In this document: one piece after another, positions 1 to 6,267 of the stretch
How positions within the stretch are numbered: position 1 is the stretch's first letter
How the letters are laid out: each line of letters opens with the position of its first letter
From: Acidobacteriota bacterium
Lineage (GTDB): Bacteria; Acidobacteriota; Vicinamibacteria; Vicinamibacterales; UBA8438
Length of the DNA: 6,267 nucleotides
Assembly: GCA_011523485.1 (NCBI GenBank)
Contig: WTGR01000505.1
Coordinates: forward strand, 1-6,267
Direction: 5' to 3'
Translations under genes and position numbers: made by a program
The notes under the pieces: generated by a model
What the model was told of the DNA's origin: nothing
What the model saw: the letters and a program-made list of their open reading frames with translations, nothing else
The model's database searches: none

Positions 1-1366
1 TGTAGAGCGCGTCCTGCCGCGTCGTCATGCCGCGGCTGGCCGCCACCCACGGCTTCGCCTGCGCCGTGCCGATGAAGAAGAGCCCCAGATCCGGATCGTA
101 GCTCCCCGGGATCCAGGCGTCGCCGCCCGCGCGCAGGTACGGCGGCGTATCGCCCCACGAGGCGTCGTTCGGATCGCCGGGCAGCGCGATCGTGGACGTG
201 CGCCACAGCTCTTCTCCGGTGTCCGGATCGTGCCCGGTGATAAAGCAGCTCTGCTCCGTGTACCGCTCGCAGCCGTTCGTGCCGGTGATGACGACGCCGT
301 TGGCGACGACCGGGCCGGCGTTCTGTCGGAAGCCCTGCGTGTAGTCGGTCTTGACCGACCGCCACACTTCCTCGCCGGTTCGCGCGTCGAGCGCGACCAG
401 GGAAGCGTCCGCCCGCGCGAGGAACAGCTTGTCGCCGTAGAGCGCCAGCGTGCGGGTGGCGCCGGCCCGCACATCCTCCGGCAGCCGCGCGCGGTAGACC
501 CAGATCACGTCGCCCGTCGCCGCGTCGATCGCCTGCACCACGTTCCCCGGGTTGGCCAGGAACATCACGCCGTCGTGCACCAGCGGCGTCGTCTGGTTGT
601 TGCCCGGCCGCACCGCGATCGACCACGCGAGCTTCAGATCGGCGACGTTGTCGCGCGTCACCTGATCGAGCGTGCTGTAGCCGTGGCTGTTGCGCGTCCG
701 CCGCCAGCTCAGCCAGTCGCCGGGCGGCGGGTCGGCGAGCATCTCGTCGGTCACCGGGGTCAGCTCGTGCGGCACCTCCTGGTTGATGAAGCGCGACACG
801 CGCCGCCGCACCCGCTCGCCCGCCTGCTCCGCGCGGCGCGCCTCGGCCATGTCGGCGGCATCGCCGATCGGCACCCCCGCATCCACCGTCAGCACGCCGT
901 CGCCCGGCACCGCGCCGTTCGCCTCCAGCAGGTACGCCACCAGATCCACGTAGGCCTGATCGCTGAGCGAGCCGGCCTGCCCCGGGGGCATCGTGTCCCG
1001 CATGTAGGCGAACAGGTCATCGGTCGTCTGCCCCACCCAACTGTTCAGGAAGTCCACACCCGACAGAGGCGGCGCGTGCACCATGCCCTCCAGGGCCGGT
1101 CCGTGACACTCTTCGCACTGCACGCCGTAGACCGACCAGCCGCCGGACGCCTGGTCCGAGGTGAAGGCCCCCTCCGCCACGGGGGCCTGCGCCGCCGCCA
1201 CGGGGGCGCCCGGTCCACCGGCGAAGCCAGCCGCCACGATCAGCCCGACGGCTGCCGCCCGGAGCAGCGCTCGCGCGAGATTCCGTCCCTGGAGCGTGCA
1301 CAGTGTCAGCGAGCGCGCTCCGCTCCAACGCGATCCGCCGCTGCCGACGCGAGTTTCGTTCGACAT
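1..1366 (-). CDS. PQQ-dependent alcohol dehydrogenase-type quinoprotein with N-terminal cytochrome c domain (C-terminus cut by window edge)
   Basis: Seen: 455 codons from ATG 1364-1366, preceded by AGGAG at 1376-1380 (9-nt spacing), open to the left edge. Residues 31-60 form a hydrophobic Sec-type export segment behind a long, basic N-terminus. A cytochrome c domain follows: CEECH at 84-88 binds haem and Met126 in MPPG is the likely axial ligand. From about residue 216 the sequence is PQQ beta-propeller: W-motif repeats such as DAATGDVIW (281-289), DARTGEEVW (327-335) and DPDTGEELW (380-388), then GSYDPDLGLFFIGTAQAKPW (421-440). Known of the family: periplasmic quinoproteins oxidise alcohols or related substrates and pass electrons to cytochrome c. 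Inferred: the fused haem domain is the first electron acceptor. The vicinal Cys-Cys of methanol dehydrogenases is absent; the aligned stretch reads DVRAGATRTLALYG. The substrate cannot be told. The full protein is probably around 650-750 residues. It lies 87 bp downstream of the MBL gene, probably in one operon. Confidence 0.93.
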   Translation of the reverse strand, partial: MSNETRVGSGGSRWSGARSLTLCTLQGRNLARALLRAAAVGLIVAAGFAGGPGAPVAAAQAPVAEGAFTSDQASGGWSVYGVQCEECHGPALEGMVHAPPLSGVDFLNSWVGQTTDDLFAYMRDTMPPGQAGSLSDQAYVDLVAYLLEANGAVPGDGVLTVDAGVPIGDAADMAEARRAEQAGERVRRRVSRFINQEVPHELTPVTDEMLADPPPGDWLSWRRTRNSHGYSTLDQVTRDNVADLKLAWSIAVRPGNNQTTPLVHDGVMFLANPGNVVQAIDAATGDVIWVYRARLPEDVRAGATRTLALYGDKLFLARADASLVALDARTGEEVWRSVKTDYTQGFRQNAGPVVANGVVITGTNGCERYTEQSCFITGHDPDTGEELWRTSTIALPGDPNDASWGDTPPYLRAGGDAWIPGSYDPDLGLFFIGTAQAKPWVAASRGMTTRQDALY

Positions 1367-1375
1367 GATCCGCTA

Positions 1376-1380
1376 CTCCT
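1376..1380 (-). promoter_or_regulatory. Ribosome binding site of the quinoprotein gene
   Basis: AGGAG on the minus strand, 9 nt before ATG 1364-1366. It supports this start despite the unusually long N-terminal region (about 30 residues) ahead of the hydrophobic export segment; the next in-frame Met is residue 95, inside the cytochrome domain. Confidence 0.75.
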
Positions 1381-1453
1381 CGGTGCCTTCACGCGGGTTC
1401 GCACAGCGCGTGGGCGTCAATGCCGTTTGCATGAGCCGACACTTGGCCGACAC

Positions 1454-2350
1454 TCAGCCGGCGGTAACCTCTTCGTAGGCCGTTCCAATGTTGCGCGCCG
1501 GCTGGCCGGAGTATTCCGCGAACCCCGGTAGCTGCTCGACCTGCGCGATCTCCTCCGCCGACCTGCCGGCGGCAATCCCCTGCTCGACGTACTCGAGGAG
1601 TCCGGCGAAGTAGTCGCGCATTCCGAGCAGCACGCTCTGCGGACCGGTAATCGGCCACCCCGGCCCCGAATGGCCGAAGATGTAGGTGGTGTCGCTGTCG
1701 TGGTCCGCGACGACCTGCTCGAGGGTCGTAATCCAGTTGCGGATCGAGGCGCCGCCCGGGCGGTCGACGAACGGGTGACGGTGGTTGAACATCAGGTCGC
1801 CCATGTGAACGACGTTGGCGTCCTCGAAGAAGATGACGCCGTCCCCGCCGGTGTGGGCCGGGCCGTAGTGCCTGGCCGACACCCGCTCGCCACCGGCGTC
1901 GAGACTCCAGTTCTCGTCGAACGTCTCGTCCGCATAGGCCTGGGCCGCCTCGGTGTCCCGCGCTTCCGCCTGGCGCCGCTGCAGTCCCGGCACGTTGGCG
2001 TGGGCGACGATCTTCTCCACCGCAGGCCGCAGCGTCTGGTTCCCGGCGGTGTGATCGCCATGATGGTGCGTGTTGACGAGAACGTCGATCCTGCGGGACG
2101 TCCGCTCGCCGAGGCCGTCGAGGAACATCCGGGCCGTATCCGCGAACTGGCTGTCGACGACCACGACCGCATCCGAATTGATGAGCCAACCCATCGTCCC
2201 GCCGCGGGCGGTGAAGATGCCCACGTTGCCGCGTACGGCGGTGAATTCCGGGGTTGCCGGCGGCTGCGCGAGGAGCGGAACCCTGTACAGCGCGGACCCA
2301 ACCACTCCGCATGTCGAGGTGACGATGAACTCACGGCGATTCCACTTCAT
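1454..2350 (-). CDS. Tat-exported MBL-fold metallo-hydrolase
   Basis: Seen: 298 residues, ATG 2348-2350, stop TGA 1454-1456. The N-terminus has a twin-arginine motif (NRREFIV, residues 4-10) followed by a hydrophobic stretch to about residue 28, so folded export to the periplasm by Tat is likely. The metallo-beta-lactamase fold is marked by the HxHxDH motif (THHHGDH, His95, His97, Asp99, His100), His166 in GPAHTGGD, Asp185 in HMGDLMF and His227 in FGHSGP; together these are the full set of ligands for a dinuclear metal site, so the enzyme looks catalytically intact. Known: such periplasmic MBL proteins include SoxH-like and quinoprotein-associated hydrolases, most without a defined substrate. 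Inferred: its position directly before a PQQ dehydrogenase suggests a joint role, for example acting on a substrate or product of that enzyme. It does not look like a true beta-lactamase, but the exact reaction cannot be read from sequence. Confidence 0.93.
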   Translation of the reverse strand: MKWNRREFIVTSTCGVVGSALYRVPLLAQPPATPEFTAVRGNVGIFTARGGTMGWLINSDAVVVVDSQFADTARMFLDGLGERTSRRIDVLVNTHHHGDHTAGNQTLRPAVEKIVAHANVPGLQRRQAEARDTEAAQAYADETFDENWSLDAGGERVSARHYGPAHTGGDGVIFFEDANVVHMGDLMFNHRHPFVDRPGGASIRNWITTLEQVVADHDSDTTYIFGHSGPGWPITGPQSVLLGMRDYFAGLLEYVEQGIAAGRSAEEIAQVEQLPGFAEYSGQPARNIGTAYEEVTAG

Positions 2351-3013: not shown

Positions 3014-3310
3014 CCGGGTTCCTAGCCGAACTTCGGTCAGCGGCGGCGCGGCGACCGCGGCGTGGTAGATCGCGTCGACGGCCGATCCCATTGTTGCCCG
3101 TACATCGGTCCGAAAGGCGGCAACGCTCGAGGCTCCGCCGAACGCGTCGCCGCGACTCGCCGTCCGAGCCTCGGTCCCGGACGAGACACAGGATCTCGGC
3201 GTCGGTTTCGGCCGGCAGCGCCCTGAGCAGGTGTGCGCTCAGAAGCCGGTGGCGCCGGGGAGCAGGACGCGCCCCGTCCGTGGCGCGTCCCACGGACCGG
3301 CGGCAGGGCG
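3014..3310 (-). pseudogene. Broken thioester-reductase (NAD-binding) domain remnant
   Basis: Seen: minus-strand pieces match the N-terminal Rossmann part of the thioester-reductase family (NAD_binding_4, the terminal reductase of NRPS, PKS and carboxylic acid reductases) in order but in two frames. TGRVLLPGATGF (3242-3277) carries the GxxGxxG nucleotide-binding start and runs straight into TGA at 3239-3241. One missing base there would restore GATGFLSAHLLRAL, and the next frame continues SAHLLRAL then ETDAEILCLVR and RRVRRSLERCRLSD. The reading then returns to the first frame with SAVDAIYHAAV and VRLGTR (to 3014). The usual 30 or so residues between the first arginine-rich helix and the DAIYHAA strand are largely missing. 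The catalytic Tyr/Lys half is not seen. Upstream WDAPRTG resembles the usual linker before this domain; in-frame sequence farther up to a TAG near 3393 is unrecognised. Inferred: a non-functional scrap of a biosynthetic megasynthase or ligase-reductase gene. Confidence 0.68.
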
Positions 3311-3416
3311 GATAACGAACAGCAGCACGCCGTCGGCCCGCATCAGGGCGCGCGCGTGGTCGACACGCGCTGGCGAATCCGCGGCGCCGAACTATGCGTG
3401 CACCGTGGAATCCGGA

Positions 3417-3921
3417 ACGATTTCCGTCGACGACGCGGCGGTCTCGGAGGTGATGGTCAACGGGCCGGCGGCGGTCTATGTCGAGCGCGCCGGCCGGCTG
3501 GCGGCTCTGGAGGCGCCGGCGCTGACGGCCGAGGCGGTGGCGCGGGCCGCGATCCAGATCGCCCGCCCGCTGGGCGAGGATCCGGCGACCGACCCGCGCG
3601 GCTGGCCGACGGCTTGCGAGTGGCGGTATGCAGCCCGCCGGCGGCGCCGGCAACGGCCATCACCATCCGCCGCTTCGGGGGCCGGGCGTTCACCATCGAG
3701 GAGCTGACCGCGAGCGGCTCGCTGCCCCCGGCCGTGGTCGAAGCGGCGGCGGCCGTGCTCGGCGCCGAGCGCAACGTGCTGATTTCGGGCGACACCGGCT
3801 CCGGCAAGACGACGCTCTTGAACGCCTTGGTGGCGCTCCTGCCGGCTGCGGGCCGCGTCATTTCCATCGAGGACACGCTGGAGCTGCGCCTGCGTCGCGC
3901 CAACTGCCTGCGCTTCGAGGC
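3417..3921 (+). pseudogene. Truncated and frameshifted TrbB/CpaF-type secretion ATPase
   Basis: Known: TrbB/CpaF ATPases are hexameric AAA-like motors of conjugation, type IV secretion or Tad pili. Seen: the N-terminal domain appears as VSEVMVNGPAAVYVERAGRL (3441-3500) in one frame up to DPR near 3594. The match then continues two bases over, from 3596, as RLADGLRVAVCSPPA, TIRRFGGRAFTIEEL, the Walker A motif GDTGSGKTT (3788-3814) and the acidic box ISIEDTLELRL with NCLRFEAR (ending about 3921). A single-base deletion or two-base insertion at about 3594-3596 explains the switch. After FEAR the family similarity ends abruptly. The Walker B segment, the VGEVRGGEA region and the GHxGSxxTxHAN His box are all absent, as are the first 20-30 residues. 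The family usually has about 320 or more residues; fewer than 170 remain. It cannot make an active ATPase. It points to an old conjugative or pilus element at this site. TrbB-like is preferred to CpaF because of the SPPA...AITIRRF wording. Confidence 0.8.
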
Positions 3922-4050
3922 ACGCGTTCGACAGGCGGCGGCAACTACATCGGTGCTCAGAACGATGGGGGTGCCTCAGCCAGAGCCGCCGACGCACCAG
4001 CCGCAAGCGCGAGCCAGGGCGGTTACCCTACTCTGTGGTTGAAGCGGTGA
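3922..4050 (+). other. Unassigned C-terminal-like reading frame after the ATPase breakpoint
   Basis: Directly after the point where TrbB similarity stops, a different plus-strand frame (3922-4050, TGA at 4048-4050) reads STGGGNYIGAQNDGG, then an Ala/Pro linker (RAADAPAASASQ) and ends GGYPTLWLKR. Its wording looks more like a natural protein tail than the other frames here, but I recognise no family and it has no start of its own. It may be the 3' scrap of another gene joined at a deletion or integration junction. It overlaps the end of the minus-strand gene at 4028 by 23 bp, tail to tail. Confidence 0.25.
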
Positions 4051-4324
4051 TTTTGTACGCGTACACGTGCACGGAAGCAGCGTCCCCGCCACCCTCGCCG
4101 CCCTGGAAGCCCTTGGCGAGGAAGTACGTCTCGACATCGCGCGCTACGCCAGCAGATGAAGTCTCCCTGTAGATCCAAGCGCCATTCTTCTCGCTGACAC
4201 CGTGGTCGCCGAACAGCCGACCCCTAGGGTCCTTCGTGATGCCGACGTACCAGCCGTACTGCGCGTGGCCGCACTCCTCAACATGAGCTTCGATTTCAGC
4301 AATAGCCTGCTGCTTGGTCACCAT
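4028..4324 (-). CDS. Small GIY-YIG-like protein (hypothetical)
   Basis: Seen: 98 residues, ATG 4322-4324, TAG 4028-4030. The Shine-Dalgarno is weak (GGGTGG before GACGACC). The core reads GWYVGITKDPRGRLF (24-38), His41, a helix ARDVETYFL (61-69), a glycine loop GGEGGG (75-80) and a final strand VHVYAYKI (85-92). This order resembles GIY-YIG nucleases: YVG for the YIG strand, Arg36 ten residues after Tyr26 as the catalytic arginine, and Glu65 as the metal-binding glutamate. No GIY strand is found at the expected place about ten residues earlier (the N-terminus is a Glu-rich helix with CGHAQYG), so it is a divergent or reduced version. It follows the methylase gene by 111 bp on the same strand. 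Inferred: a possible DNA-binding or nicking partner of the methylase, or an independent small accessory gene. The coding call is firmer than the fold assignment. Confidence 0.72.
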   Translation of the reverse strand: MVTKQQAIAEIEAHVEECGHAQYGWYVGITKDPRGRLFGDHGVSEKNGAWIYRETSSAGVARDVETYFLAKGFQGGEGGGDAASVHVYAYKITASTTE

Positions 4325-4340
4325 GGTCGTCCACCCGGAA

Positions 4341-4366
4341 GCGGACGGGCGCGAGCGCCCGTCCGC
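4341..4366. terminator. Perfect GC hairpin between methylase and small gene
   Basis: GCGGACGGGCGC (4341-4352) and GCGCCCGTCCGC (4355-4366) are perfect inverted copies separated by two bases (an 11-bp stem with a CGAG loop if the inner pair opens). It lies 69 bp after the methylase stop and 16 bp before the small gene's start codon. Neither strand has a T-run after the stem, so it is not a classical intrinsic terminator. It may be a Rho-independent-like pause, an mRNA-stabilising stem or an attenuator limiting expression of the small downstream gene. Confidence 0.45.
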
Positions 4367-4435
4367 GGTGCGGAACGTACACGATCTGGACGAGGAATGC
4401 CAGCGCGGCGGGGCGTTGGCGCCGTCAGGGGACGC

Positions 4436-6267
4436 TCAGTGAGCGTCGCTGAAGAGGGCCGCCTGCTCGGCAGGCGCGGATCGCGCCAGTCGTGTGATCT
4501 CCGACCAGCTCTGAACGAGCGTGTTGTAGCGCAGAGCTTCGGCCGCGCGCTTCTTCCGGTCGCAGAGCGTGTAAAGGCGGTAGCACAGTTCGCGAACCGT
4601 CTCGGCCCTGCCGCCAAGGACGGCCACGATTTCAGCCGCGCCGGTTTCGCCGCGCTCCTCGAGGACGCGAACGAGATGGTGCACCGTTTCCCACGTGGTC
4701 AGCCGCGCATCGACTGCCGGATCCCAGTCGTCGGACAACTCCTCAGGGGCCAGCAAGCGTACCGTGCCGCCCTTCGACGCGAGAATGCCAGCTTTGACCA
4801 TGCCAGCGACGCTCGTGTTCTTCGCCTTGGAGAGCGTCTCCGCGATGCCGTAGTCGCCTTCGTCGAAACCATGCTGCTCGAACCAGGCGACGGCCCAGCG
4901 GCTGTCCGCATCGAAGTCACCCTCCTGCTCGGCGAGAACCTCGTCGAGGATTTGATTGATGAGCGCCAGTGCTTCTCGAACCGACATCGACTGGCCGGCT
5001 GCGTCGAGTACCCTCTCGTAGCGCGTGTATACCCCCATGCCGGGGCCGATGGCCGCCTGGGCGAGGTCGACCGGGGCGACGTTGCCGGACTGGAGGAGGC
5101 GCAGCGCCTGGGGCAATTCCGAGCGCAGTGCGGTGAGGAACTCACGGCGCGTACCCGCTGGTGCGTCCGCGGGGCGGCGGCGACAAACCAGCACGATGCT
5201 GGAGGCGAGGGCGTTCGTGCCGATGCCGGTGGACCTTGCGGTCCGTTCGGTACGCATCGGCCAAGTGCCCGTTATCGAGAATCCGGAGCGCATCACGGCG
5301 TCGAGGAACGTCTCCCAGCCGGTACTGGCCGTTCCAGTGTCACCCTTCGTCTCCGACTGCTTGAAGGCGTAGTAGATGGTGACAGGGAATCCGGGGTGTG
5401 CGTCGTCAGCAAGGAGACCGAGCGCCCGGGTCATTCCGTCGAGGAAGAACGTCTCGGCGGCTTCACGACCCCCGTGGCGGTACGGCGTCGCGACCAGCTC
5501 CTCGGCCTTCGGAACAGCGACCGTGGCGAACAGCTCCGGGAACACAGGCTTGAGTGAGCGCCGGAGCCAGACGTAGAAGAAGTCGGACAGATCGGCGTAG
5601 CCGATGTTGTCGTAGTACGGTGGGTCCGTAGAGACGACCGCATTCAGCCCGAGTGGCTGTCCGGCTGCATCGGCCTGAACCCCCGACCCCAGTTGGTCGG
5701 CCTTCGTCCGCGGCAGCCCATCGAGTGCCTTCGCGATCCATTCGATCCCGCCGATCCAGTTGCCACTGGTCTTGCCGAAGGGTGGGGCCTCGGCATAGTC
5801 CCAAGTCATCGGGAGCGCTTGTCTTGCGAACGTCCCACGGATGAAGCCGTCAGCCGGCGTCGCGATGACAGACCAGTAGTTTGCGGCGTAGTCCACAGCA
5901 CAGGCCAAATACAGGGACACCGCCTCGGCGTACGCGGTCGCACCCGTGCCGCCCGCGCGGAGCGGTCGGTCGTCGTCCGGCAGTCCCGCAGCCGCGGCGT
6001 CACGCCGAACGCGCGCCGTCGCCTCCGCCACCAAGTCGGAGAAGGTCGTGAGGGCGGCGAGCTGTCGCGACGTGAAGATGTCGCCGTACGAGGGGAATCC
6101 GTAGAGAGGCGGAGAGAACCAGCGGCGGTCGCGTGGCATGTTCAACTCCGGGCGCCAGGCGGGAATCGACACCTGGGTGGTCCGTTGATGCTCGCGGTCG
6201 GGTGCCACGTAGAGGCGACCGCGGTCGCCTTCCGCCACGATCGCCAGCAACCGCTGGCCAATCCGCT
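4436..6267 (-). CDS. COG1743/DUF1156-type adenine-specific DNA methylase (N-terminus cut by window edge)
   Basis: Seen: the last 610 codons of a longer minus-strand gene ending at TGA 4436-4438. The frame is open to the right edge (RIGQRLLAIVAEGDRGR at the edge), so a TTG at 6248-6250 is internal, not the start. Family features include PRDRRWFSPPLYGFPSYGDIF, MTWDYAEAPPFGKTSGNW, and methyltransferase motif IV as VVSTDPPYYDNIGY, with DPPY encoded at 5615-5626. This is followed by ADLSDFFYVWLRRSL and FPVTIYYAFKQ. The DPPY form fits N6-adenine (or N4-cytosine) methylation using S-adenosylmethionine. The C-terminal third (about 4440-5100) is helical, with ALALINQILDEVL and RWAVAWFEQHGFDEGDYG, and has no motif I know; it may bind DNA or a partner. 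Known: COG1743 methylases are often encoded with DUF499 and DUF3780 proteins and helicases in predicted anti-phage islands. Here the neighbour inside the window is a GIY-YIG-like small protein. The gene appears intact; the DUF1156 domain itself would lie beyond the edge. Confidence 0.92.
   Translation of the reverse strand, partial: RIGQRLLAIVAEGDRGRLYVAPDREHQRTTQVSIPAWRPELNMPRDRRWFSPPLYGFPSYGDIFTSRQLAALTTFSDLVAEATARVRRDAAAAGLPDDDRPLRAGGTGATAYAEAVSLYLACAVDYAANYWSVIATPADGFIRGTFARQALPMTWDYAEAPPFGKTSGNWIGGIEWIAKALDGLPRTKADQLGSGVQADAAGQPLGLNAVVSTDPPYYDNIGYADLSDFFYVWLRRSLKPVFPELFATVAVPKAEELVATPYRHGGREAAETFFLDGMTRALGLLADDAHPGFPVTIYYAFKQSETKGDTGTASTGWETFLDAVMRSGFSITGTWPMRTERTARSTGIGTNALASSIVLVCRRRPADAPAGTRREFLTALRSELPQALRLLQSGNVAPVDLAQAAIGPGMGVYTRYERVLDAAGQSMSVREALALINQILDEVLAEQEGDFDADSRWAVAWFEQHGFDEGDYGIAETLSKAKNTSVAGMVKAGILASKGGTVRLLAPEELSDDWDPAVDARLTTWETVHHLVRVLEERGETGAAEIVAVLGGRAETVRELCYRLYTLCDRKKRAAEALRYNTLVQSWSEITRLARSAPAEQAALFSDAH

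Follow-up and report, generated by a model that had tools for sequence, protein, structure and literature searches.

We think it rather probable that the window (the whole stretch of 6,267 nucleotides analysed here) ends in an Hma operon, and that the small GIY-YIG-like gene lying 3' of its methylase gene HmaB is an independent neighbour, which a local rearrangement or an insertion brought to this place. None of the relatives examined repeated the pairing, which therefore looks accidental or a one-off and not like a new defence system. The original prediction had taken them for one candidate defence module, a modifying enzyme beside a possible cutting or nicking enzyme. Both open reading frames (ORFs) of that prediction were located, at 4436..6267 and 4028..4324 of the minus strand, and their identities and order were observed directly.

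HmaB methylase at the edge of the window

On the minus strand, 609 residues could be read without a stop from the right edge of the window to a natural stop at 4436, the start of the gene lying beyond the window. This ORF (4436-6265) matched the PADLOC HmaB profile with an E value of 1.1e-261, residues 1-601 of 609 being aligned to profile positions 362-962 of 967, and therefore the window carries the C-terminal two thirds of HmaB. The same ORF matched DUF1156_MTase in PADLOC weakly (3.4e-7) and DUF1156_antiphage of NCBIfam below threshold (39.2 bits vs a cut-off of 1000), and the Pfam scan gave no match at E<=1. The fragment contains STDPPYYDN, in which we take DPPYYDN to be a motif of the adenine-methylase type. 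The first-listed relative, from a Myxococcales MAG, was 68% identical over 606 residues, and the others listed were 56-76% identical in their best segment. The family is labelled DNA-adenine methylase in PADLOC-DB; it was named N6-MTase in part of the text of PMC12839542 and m5c methyltransferase in the 2021 PADLOC paper (PMC8565338). The DUF1156 domain is N-terminal in this type of methylase (described in part of PMC12839542) and falls outside the window, so that the HmaB of the window is presumed to carry it. As judged by these matches, the large ORF is a predicted DUF1156/COG1743-type N6-adenine DNA methylase, HmaB of the Hma defence system, and here the original prediction of a COG1743/DUF1156 methylase of a defence kind was supported.

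HmaC was not found by tblastn within 4.4 kb downstream of the window's HmaB (best E 0.088), the upstream side lying beyond the window. The window showed no HmaA match (best E 0.31), and the usual place of this gene, upstream of HmaB, is outside the window. GC contents by codon position were similar in the HmaB and small ORFs (0.61/0.46/0.74 and 0.67/0.52/0.80, respectively).

The small GIY-YIG-like protein

The 98-residue ORF (4028..4324, minus strand) is, as far as its sequence tells, a genuine coding sequence. It had 12 relatives besides itself at E<=1.4e-11, and a profile search collected a family of 759 proteins at E<=0.001; where names were shown in the 120 listed rows, they were only 'hypothetical' or 'uncharacterized'. 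Y26, G28, R36, H41 and E65 are conserved. Y26, H41 and E65 were kept in 120/120 and R36 in 118/120 of the listed proteins, the window's included, these being the best-scoring 120 of the 759, by which conservation is favoured. The protein scored 18.0 bits against Pfam GIY-YIG (PF01541), below the curated cut-off of 22.6, and PF01541 was matched at E<=0.1 by 57 of the 69 aligned family members including it (best 7.9e-5). PADLOC UzuA was matched weakly by 9/69 members (best 0.00097).

Among 15 relatives studied with their genome context, Y was kept in 10, R in 6, H in 14 and E in 6, and both R36 and E65 were missing in 8. Over 135 sequences (120 listed plus 15 genome), both residues were present in 123 and both missing in 8; R alone remained in 1 and E alone in 3. 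This coupling gave a Fisher p of 7e-10 over the 135 sequences and 0.011 within the 15 genome sequences alone, and the former value overstates it because several of the eight sequences lacking both residues, all of which belong to the genome sample (drawn around centres in Pseudomonadota, Chloroflexota and Planctomycetota), were close kin. The joint retention or loss of R36 and E65 fits two residues of one putative active site, with a signal inflated by relatedness.

The structure model consisted of one small domain with six secondary-structure elements, in which helix 4-17 precedes the YIG strand (25-30), and no GIY motif was present before YIG. A VYAY strand is conserved at the C-terminus of the family, and the protein has a glycine-rich loop. 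No conserved asparagine that could be equivalent to the catalytic one was seen among the invariant or nearly invariant alignment columns. Foldseek of the model against PDB gave no match at E<=0.001, and no GIY-YIG structure appeared among the 50 of 64 rows listed or among the 42 rows of a second look; a PDB sequence search with the family profile returned just two chance-level rows. A sequence-level circular permutation, with the C-terminal strand moved before the YIG part, found no support. In 10 of the 69 aligned members, each scanned in natural order, after moving the segment and after shuffling the moved segment once, the PF01541 bits were about equal in the three forms; two of the ten had no match in any form, and only P0108 rose (20.5 bits natural, 23.4 moved, 19.8 shuffled).

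These comparisons support a GIY-YIG-like protein with most of the catalytic residues, in an uncharacterised family, and its enzymatic activity is predicted from the conserved residues. The GIY-YIG likeness originally proposed thus stood as regards the residues, whereas the score remained below the PF01541 cut-off and the GIY motif is missing.

Recurrence of the pair

In the comparison of HmaB relatives, 94 loci were used. Genomes contributed 80, the best among 588 relatives, and viral sequences 14, of which two showed just 25% identity. The small gene was present in 0/94 when ORFs of at least 40 residues (1,445,887 bases) were scanned with the HMM at E<=10, and the positive control, the window's own ORF, was the sole match. 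Downstream room was at least 500 bp in 90 of these loci and at least 2 kb in 86. Thirteen members of the small-protein family searched by tblastn against the 80 genome loci gave nothing at E<=1e-3 (best 0.015). HmaB was found at E<=1e-50 on 55 plasmid records among 72,556 plasmids, none of which matched the window's small protein or P0015 at E<=0.01.

The reverse search, of 1,831 genome visits with some genomes visited twice, matched the small gene in 16 distinct genomes. Neighbourhoods from 15 of them were compared (G1748 was left out); they include divergent relatives without the catalytic residues, and some stop at a contig end, e.g., L107 and L090, which have 0.4 kb and 1.5 kb, respectively, on one side. 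HmaA, HmaB and HmaC were detected at E<=1e-3 in 0/15 of these neighbourhoods. A close HmaB was not found elsewhere in the 16 genomes either, the positive control G1445 giving 2.9e-280; G1350 and G1760 had distant HmaB matches in pieces (27-37% identical). The lack of recurrence in the samples searched was therefore observed from both sides, and it leaves the proposal that methylase and small protein form one module without support (0/94 loci, 0/15 neighbourhoods, 55 HmaB plasmid records vs 0). The original prediction had itself named, as evidence against a module, homologues of the small protein lacking a link to COG1743 genes, and this is what was seen in the sample compared, with an Hma gene in 0/15 neighbourhoods.

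The neighbour scan covered 77 ORFs (up to three of at least 100 residues per side; PADLOC at E<=1e-5), and HsdS and HsdM of L083 were the sole defence genes placed among them with 25 of the 88 matched PADLOC families listed. In L083, 77 bp separate the relative of the small gene from hsdS, which follows it on the same strand; in this region (1-2340, minus strand) hsdS is half-size and hsdM is interrupted by the contig start. The L084 cysteine desulfurase (strong PADLOC match, DndA/SspA models), the L084 HD-domain sensor (weak matches to Cas3 models) and the L094 FtsK-like translocase (strong PADLOC match) are read as housekeeping or signalling, and the remaining neighbours, read by eye, resemble metabolism, transport or signalling genes. 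A further defence neighbour may exist, because 25 of the 88 families were listed and a second mad2-matching ORF lies outside those placed.

Two relatives (L084 10709-11011 and L093 3087-3389) each follow, in the same orientation, a gene whose product by eye resembles a PAS-type signalling protein. In L104, a tyrosine recombinase (4091-5080, minus strand; PF00589), which we take to resemble integron integrases, is 2.1 kb from the relative. An integron cassette was considered and rejected: a simple strict scan detected no attC site within 2.5 kb in L104 or near the window's small gene, and its only two matches were the two strands of L084 8801-8919. No relatives of the small protein were found in phages, and 13 pattern matches in viral contigs included no true relative.

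The HmaB-HmaC gap

Long ORFs picked by place and size served as queries for HmaA and HmaC. They matched genes annotated as helicase-related protein and Swt1-family HEPN protein with 53-86% identity over long stretches, and the matched genes adjoin DUF1156 genes on two plasmids, of Meiothermus and Gloeocapsa. The HmaC query matches agree with the DUF499 ATPase fused to HEPN that is described in part of PMC12839542. Downstream sequence of 500 bp or more was available in 77 loci, 67 of which had HmaC downstream of HmaB on the same strand; of the 60 loci whose upstream sequence reached 4.5 kb or more, 52 had HmaA upstream of HmaB. The distance between HmaB and HmaC in the 67 loci was <=200 bp in 43, 200-900 bp in 6 and >900 bp in 18, i.e., the gap exceeded 200 bp in 24/67, including L009, L012, L018, L028, L056, L070 and L080.

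In these 24 widened gaps 47 ORFs were listed, and about 11 of the gaps contained effector-like ORFs by eye (L009, L012, L021, L028, L031, L040, L047, L049, L056, L070 and L080). The kinds, also by eye, were OLD-type ATPase with partner, MNT/HEPN, PIN, Schlafen/AlbA, DUF488 and GxxExxY. They agree with the auxiliary effectors of PMC12839542, where nucleases of seven superfamilies are described beside BREX and BR systems, and a nuclease-like gene after HmaB is thus not strange in kind. Among the loci compared, a GIY-YIG-like small gene occupied this slot in the window only. The slot of L080 holds a DUF488-like pair, a kind not seen in part 1 of section 35 of PMC12839542, and the Gloeocapsa plasmid encodes, as a further small cargo in this slot, a four-helix-bundle protein (L132 8866-9234), with the DUF1156 gene on one side and the HEPN ATPase gene on the other.

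Intergenic hairpin and left flank

The small gene and HmaB are on the same strand, as originally predicted, with 111 bp between them. A perfect 11-bp stem with a 4-nt loop (4341..4366, minus strand) is found in this gap, just before the small-gene start, and the 111-nt gap folds at -53 kcal/mol (z -1.89; 7/200 shuffles fold as well). A terminator between the two genes was considered. The hairpin is strong but the T tract is missing, indicating that 4341..4366 is not a canonical terminator, and no terminator-like or promoter-like site was found in 3900-4600.

To the left, a partial type II/IV secretion ATPase frame (3233..4042, plus strand; PF00437 1.4e-15, profile 94-200 of 370) overlaps the stop end of the small gene by 15 bp; it is the operon border and lies outside the operon. 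ORF 3231-3707, in another frame and without a Pfam match, seems by eye to carry an upstream part of the ATPase, and the gene (3231-4042, plus strand), whose P-loop part is in the 3233-4042 frame, looks broken. Four other frames between 2503 and 3707 had no Pfam matches. Further left are a metallo-beta-lactamase-fold protein with a twin-arginine-like leader by eye (1454-2350, minus strand; PF00753) and, adjoining it, a PQQ-dehydrogenase with a cytochrome c domain by Pfam (2-1366, minus strand). The 'graveyard' of mobile-element scraps that had been noted on this flank therefore comes down to one partial secretion ATPase, of a family not limited to mobile elements, and four frames without a Pfam match.

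Possible explanations of the arrangement

According to published predictions, HmaB would mark host adenines, and the HmaA helicase-nuclease and the HmaC/DUF499 ATPase would then spare self DNA. Directly 3' of HmaB, in the usual place of HmaC, the operon would be interrupted, and a small free-standing GIY-YIG-like gene would have arrived there by local rearrangement or insertion. Its product would most likely act on its own as a metal-dependent nuclease or nickase of minimal size, as Y26, R36, H41 and E65 suggest, and would have evolved no dependence on HmaB. The reverse comparison behind this reading covered a small sample of 15 neighbourhoods, and HmaA and HmaC might lie on the right flank, outside the window. 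Against it, the small gene sits exactly in the HmaB downstream slot that often takes cargo, on the same strand at 111 bp, and one relative is beside type I RM genes (L083). These same observations speak for a recruited auxiliary effector, a small protein captured into the slot as backup nuclease of one Hma operon, which would introduce nicks into invading DNA that lacks the modification, or step in once the main effector is blocked. We regard such a capture as possible but unlikely. The slot was widened in 24/67 loci, often with effector-like ORFs (about 11 by eye), which leaves room for a one-off recruitment; auxiliary nucleases of seven superfamilies stand beside BREX and BR systems in part of PMC12839542, and Y26, R36, H41 and E65 are intact. 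The relative adjoining HsdS/HsdM in L083 may point to a looser link of the small gene to defence. However, the gene was absent from 94 HmaB-relative loci and its relatives had no Hma gene in 15 reverse neighbourhoods, the term GIY-YIG does not occur in the main text of PMC12839542, and no HmaC follows the small gene in the window, so that it does not lie within an intact operon on that side. We give little credence to the wider proposal that the members of the 98-residue family are minimal GIY-YIG nucleases of rearranged topology, the GIY strand having moved to the C-terminus (VYAY), and that they are now and then recruited as effectors beside defence systems with an adenine methylase (Hma in the window, type I RM in L083).

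It is improbable that the small protein is a catalytically idle DNA- or RNA-binding relative to which the neighbour is irrelevant. The missing canonical GIY motif and asparagine equivalent, the Foldseek result and the loss of both R36 and E65 in 8/15 genome-context relatives are consistent with idleness, but Y26, H41 and E65 were kept in 120/120 and R36 in 118/120 of the best 120 of 759 proteins, and R and E usually persisted or disappeared as a pair, the pattern that coupled residues of an active site would give (kinship inflating this signal). A dedicated two-gene restriction-modification module, in which HmaB would protect and the small protein cut the same sites, is very improbable. The two genes are adjacent on one strand and GIY-YIG restriction enzymes such as R.Eco29kI exist (PMC1952068), yet a methylase and nuclease recurring together were seen in neither direction (0/94, 0/15), which largely refutes the module. 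Moreover, HmaB normally works with HmaA and HmaC (described in parts of PMC8565338 and PMC12839542), and a single domain of 98 residues would leave little room for a target-recognition part.

Comparison with known systems

The Hma system (PMC8565338) corresponds to the type-1 DUF499-centred BREX-related (BR) system in part of PMC12839542. The window resembles it in the match to HmaB profile positions 362-962, an HmaB-type DUF1156 methylase being recognised over 601 of 609 residues, and differs in having no HmaC within 4.4 kb downstream and in carrying a GIY-YIG-like gene directly behind HmaB. Taken as a system, this is for the most part a further ordinary HmaB whose neighbour is not conserved.

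The small protein shares with the GIY-YIG superfamily (I-TevI, the UvrC N-terminal domain, R.Eco29kI) the YxG strand and a conserved glutamate in a later helix, and has the YIG tyrosine, arginine, histidine and glutamate. Counted from the YIG tyrosine, its arginine is at a distance of 10 residues, which is also the I-TevI spacing on the residue number that we take for the I-TevI tyrosine. The histidine is 5 residues after the arginine vs 4 in R.Eco29kI, whose Y76, R104, H108 and E142 are the source of the residue roles (PMC1952068). In contrast to the superfamily, the protein has the YIG strand first, a C-terminal VYAY strand, only 98 residues and a glycine-rich loop; it stays below the PF01541 cut-off, and neither the GIY strand before YIG nor the catalytic asparagine was found in it.

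In our literature search, a GIY-YIG protein joined to HmaB/DUF1156 was not found, GIY-YIG with DUF1156 and defense gave none, and GIY-YIG with DUF499 led only to PMC7641849, in part of which EVE/GIY-YIG fusions and the COG1743-DUF499 operon are treated separately. The window is similar to the BREX and BR systems with auxiliary nucleases of PMC12839542 in having a nuclease-like gene beside an Hma/BR core gene. However, it is a single case, and the effector classes there are PD-(D/E)XK, HNH, HKD, TOPRIM/OLD, HEPN, PIN and Schlafen, GIY-YIG being absent from the main text. The Hma methylase is known, whereas the small-protein family is uncharacterised and of a kind outside the classes named in that main text. 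The family is worth a look for its active-site-like residue set on an unusual element order, with 759 proteins from one profile, and for relatives in which the arginine and the glutamate mostly disappeared jointly. Should the small protein cut DNA, this would be a GIY-YIG nuclease of very small size, and through its position in the effector slot of Hma the list of nuclease classes for BREX-related systems would grow by one.
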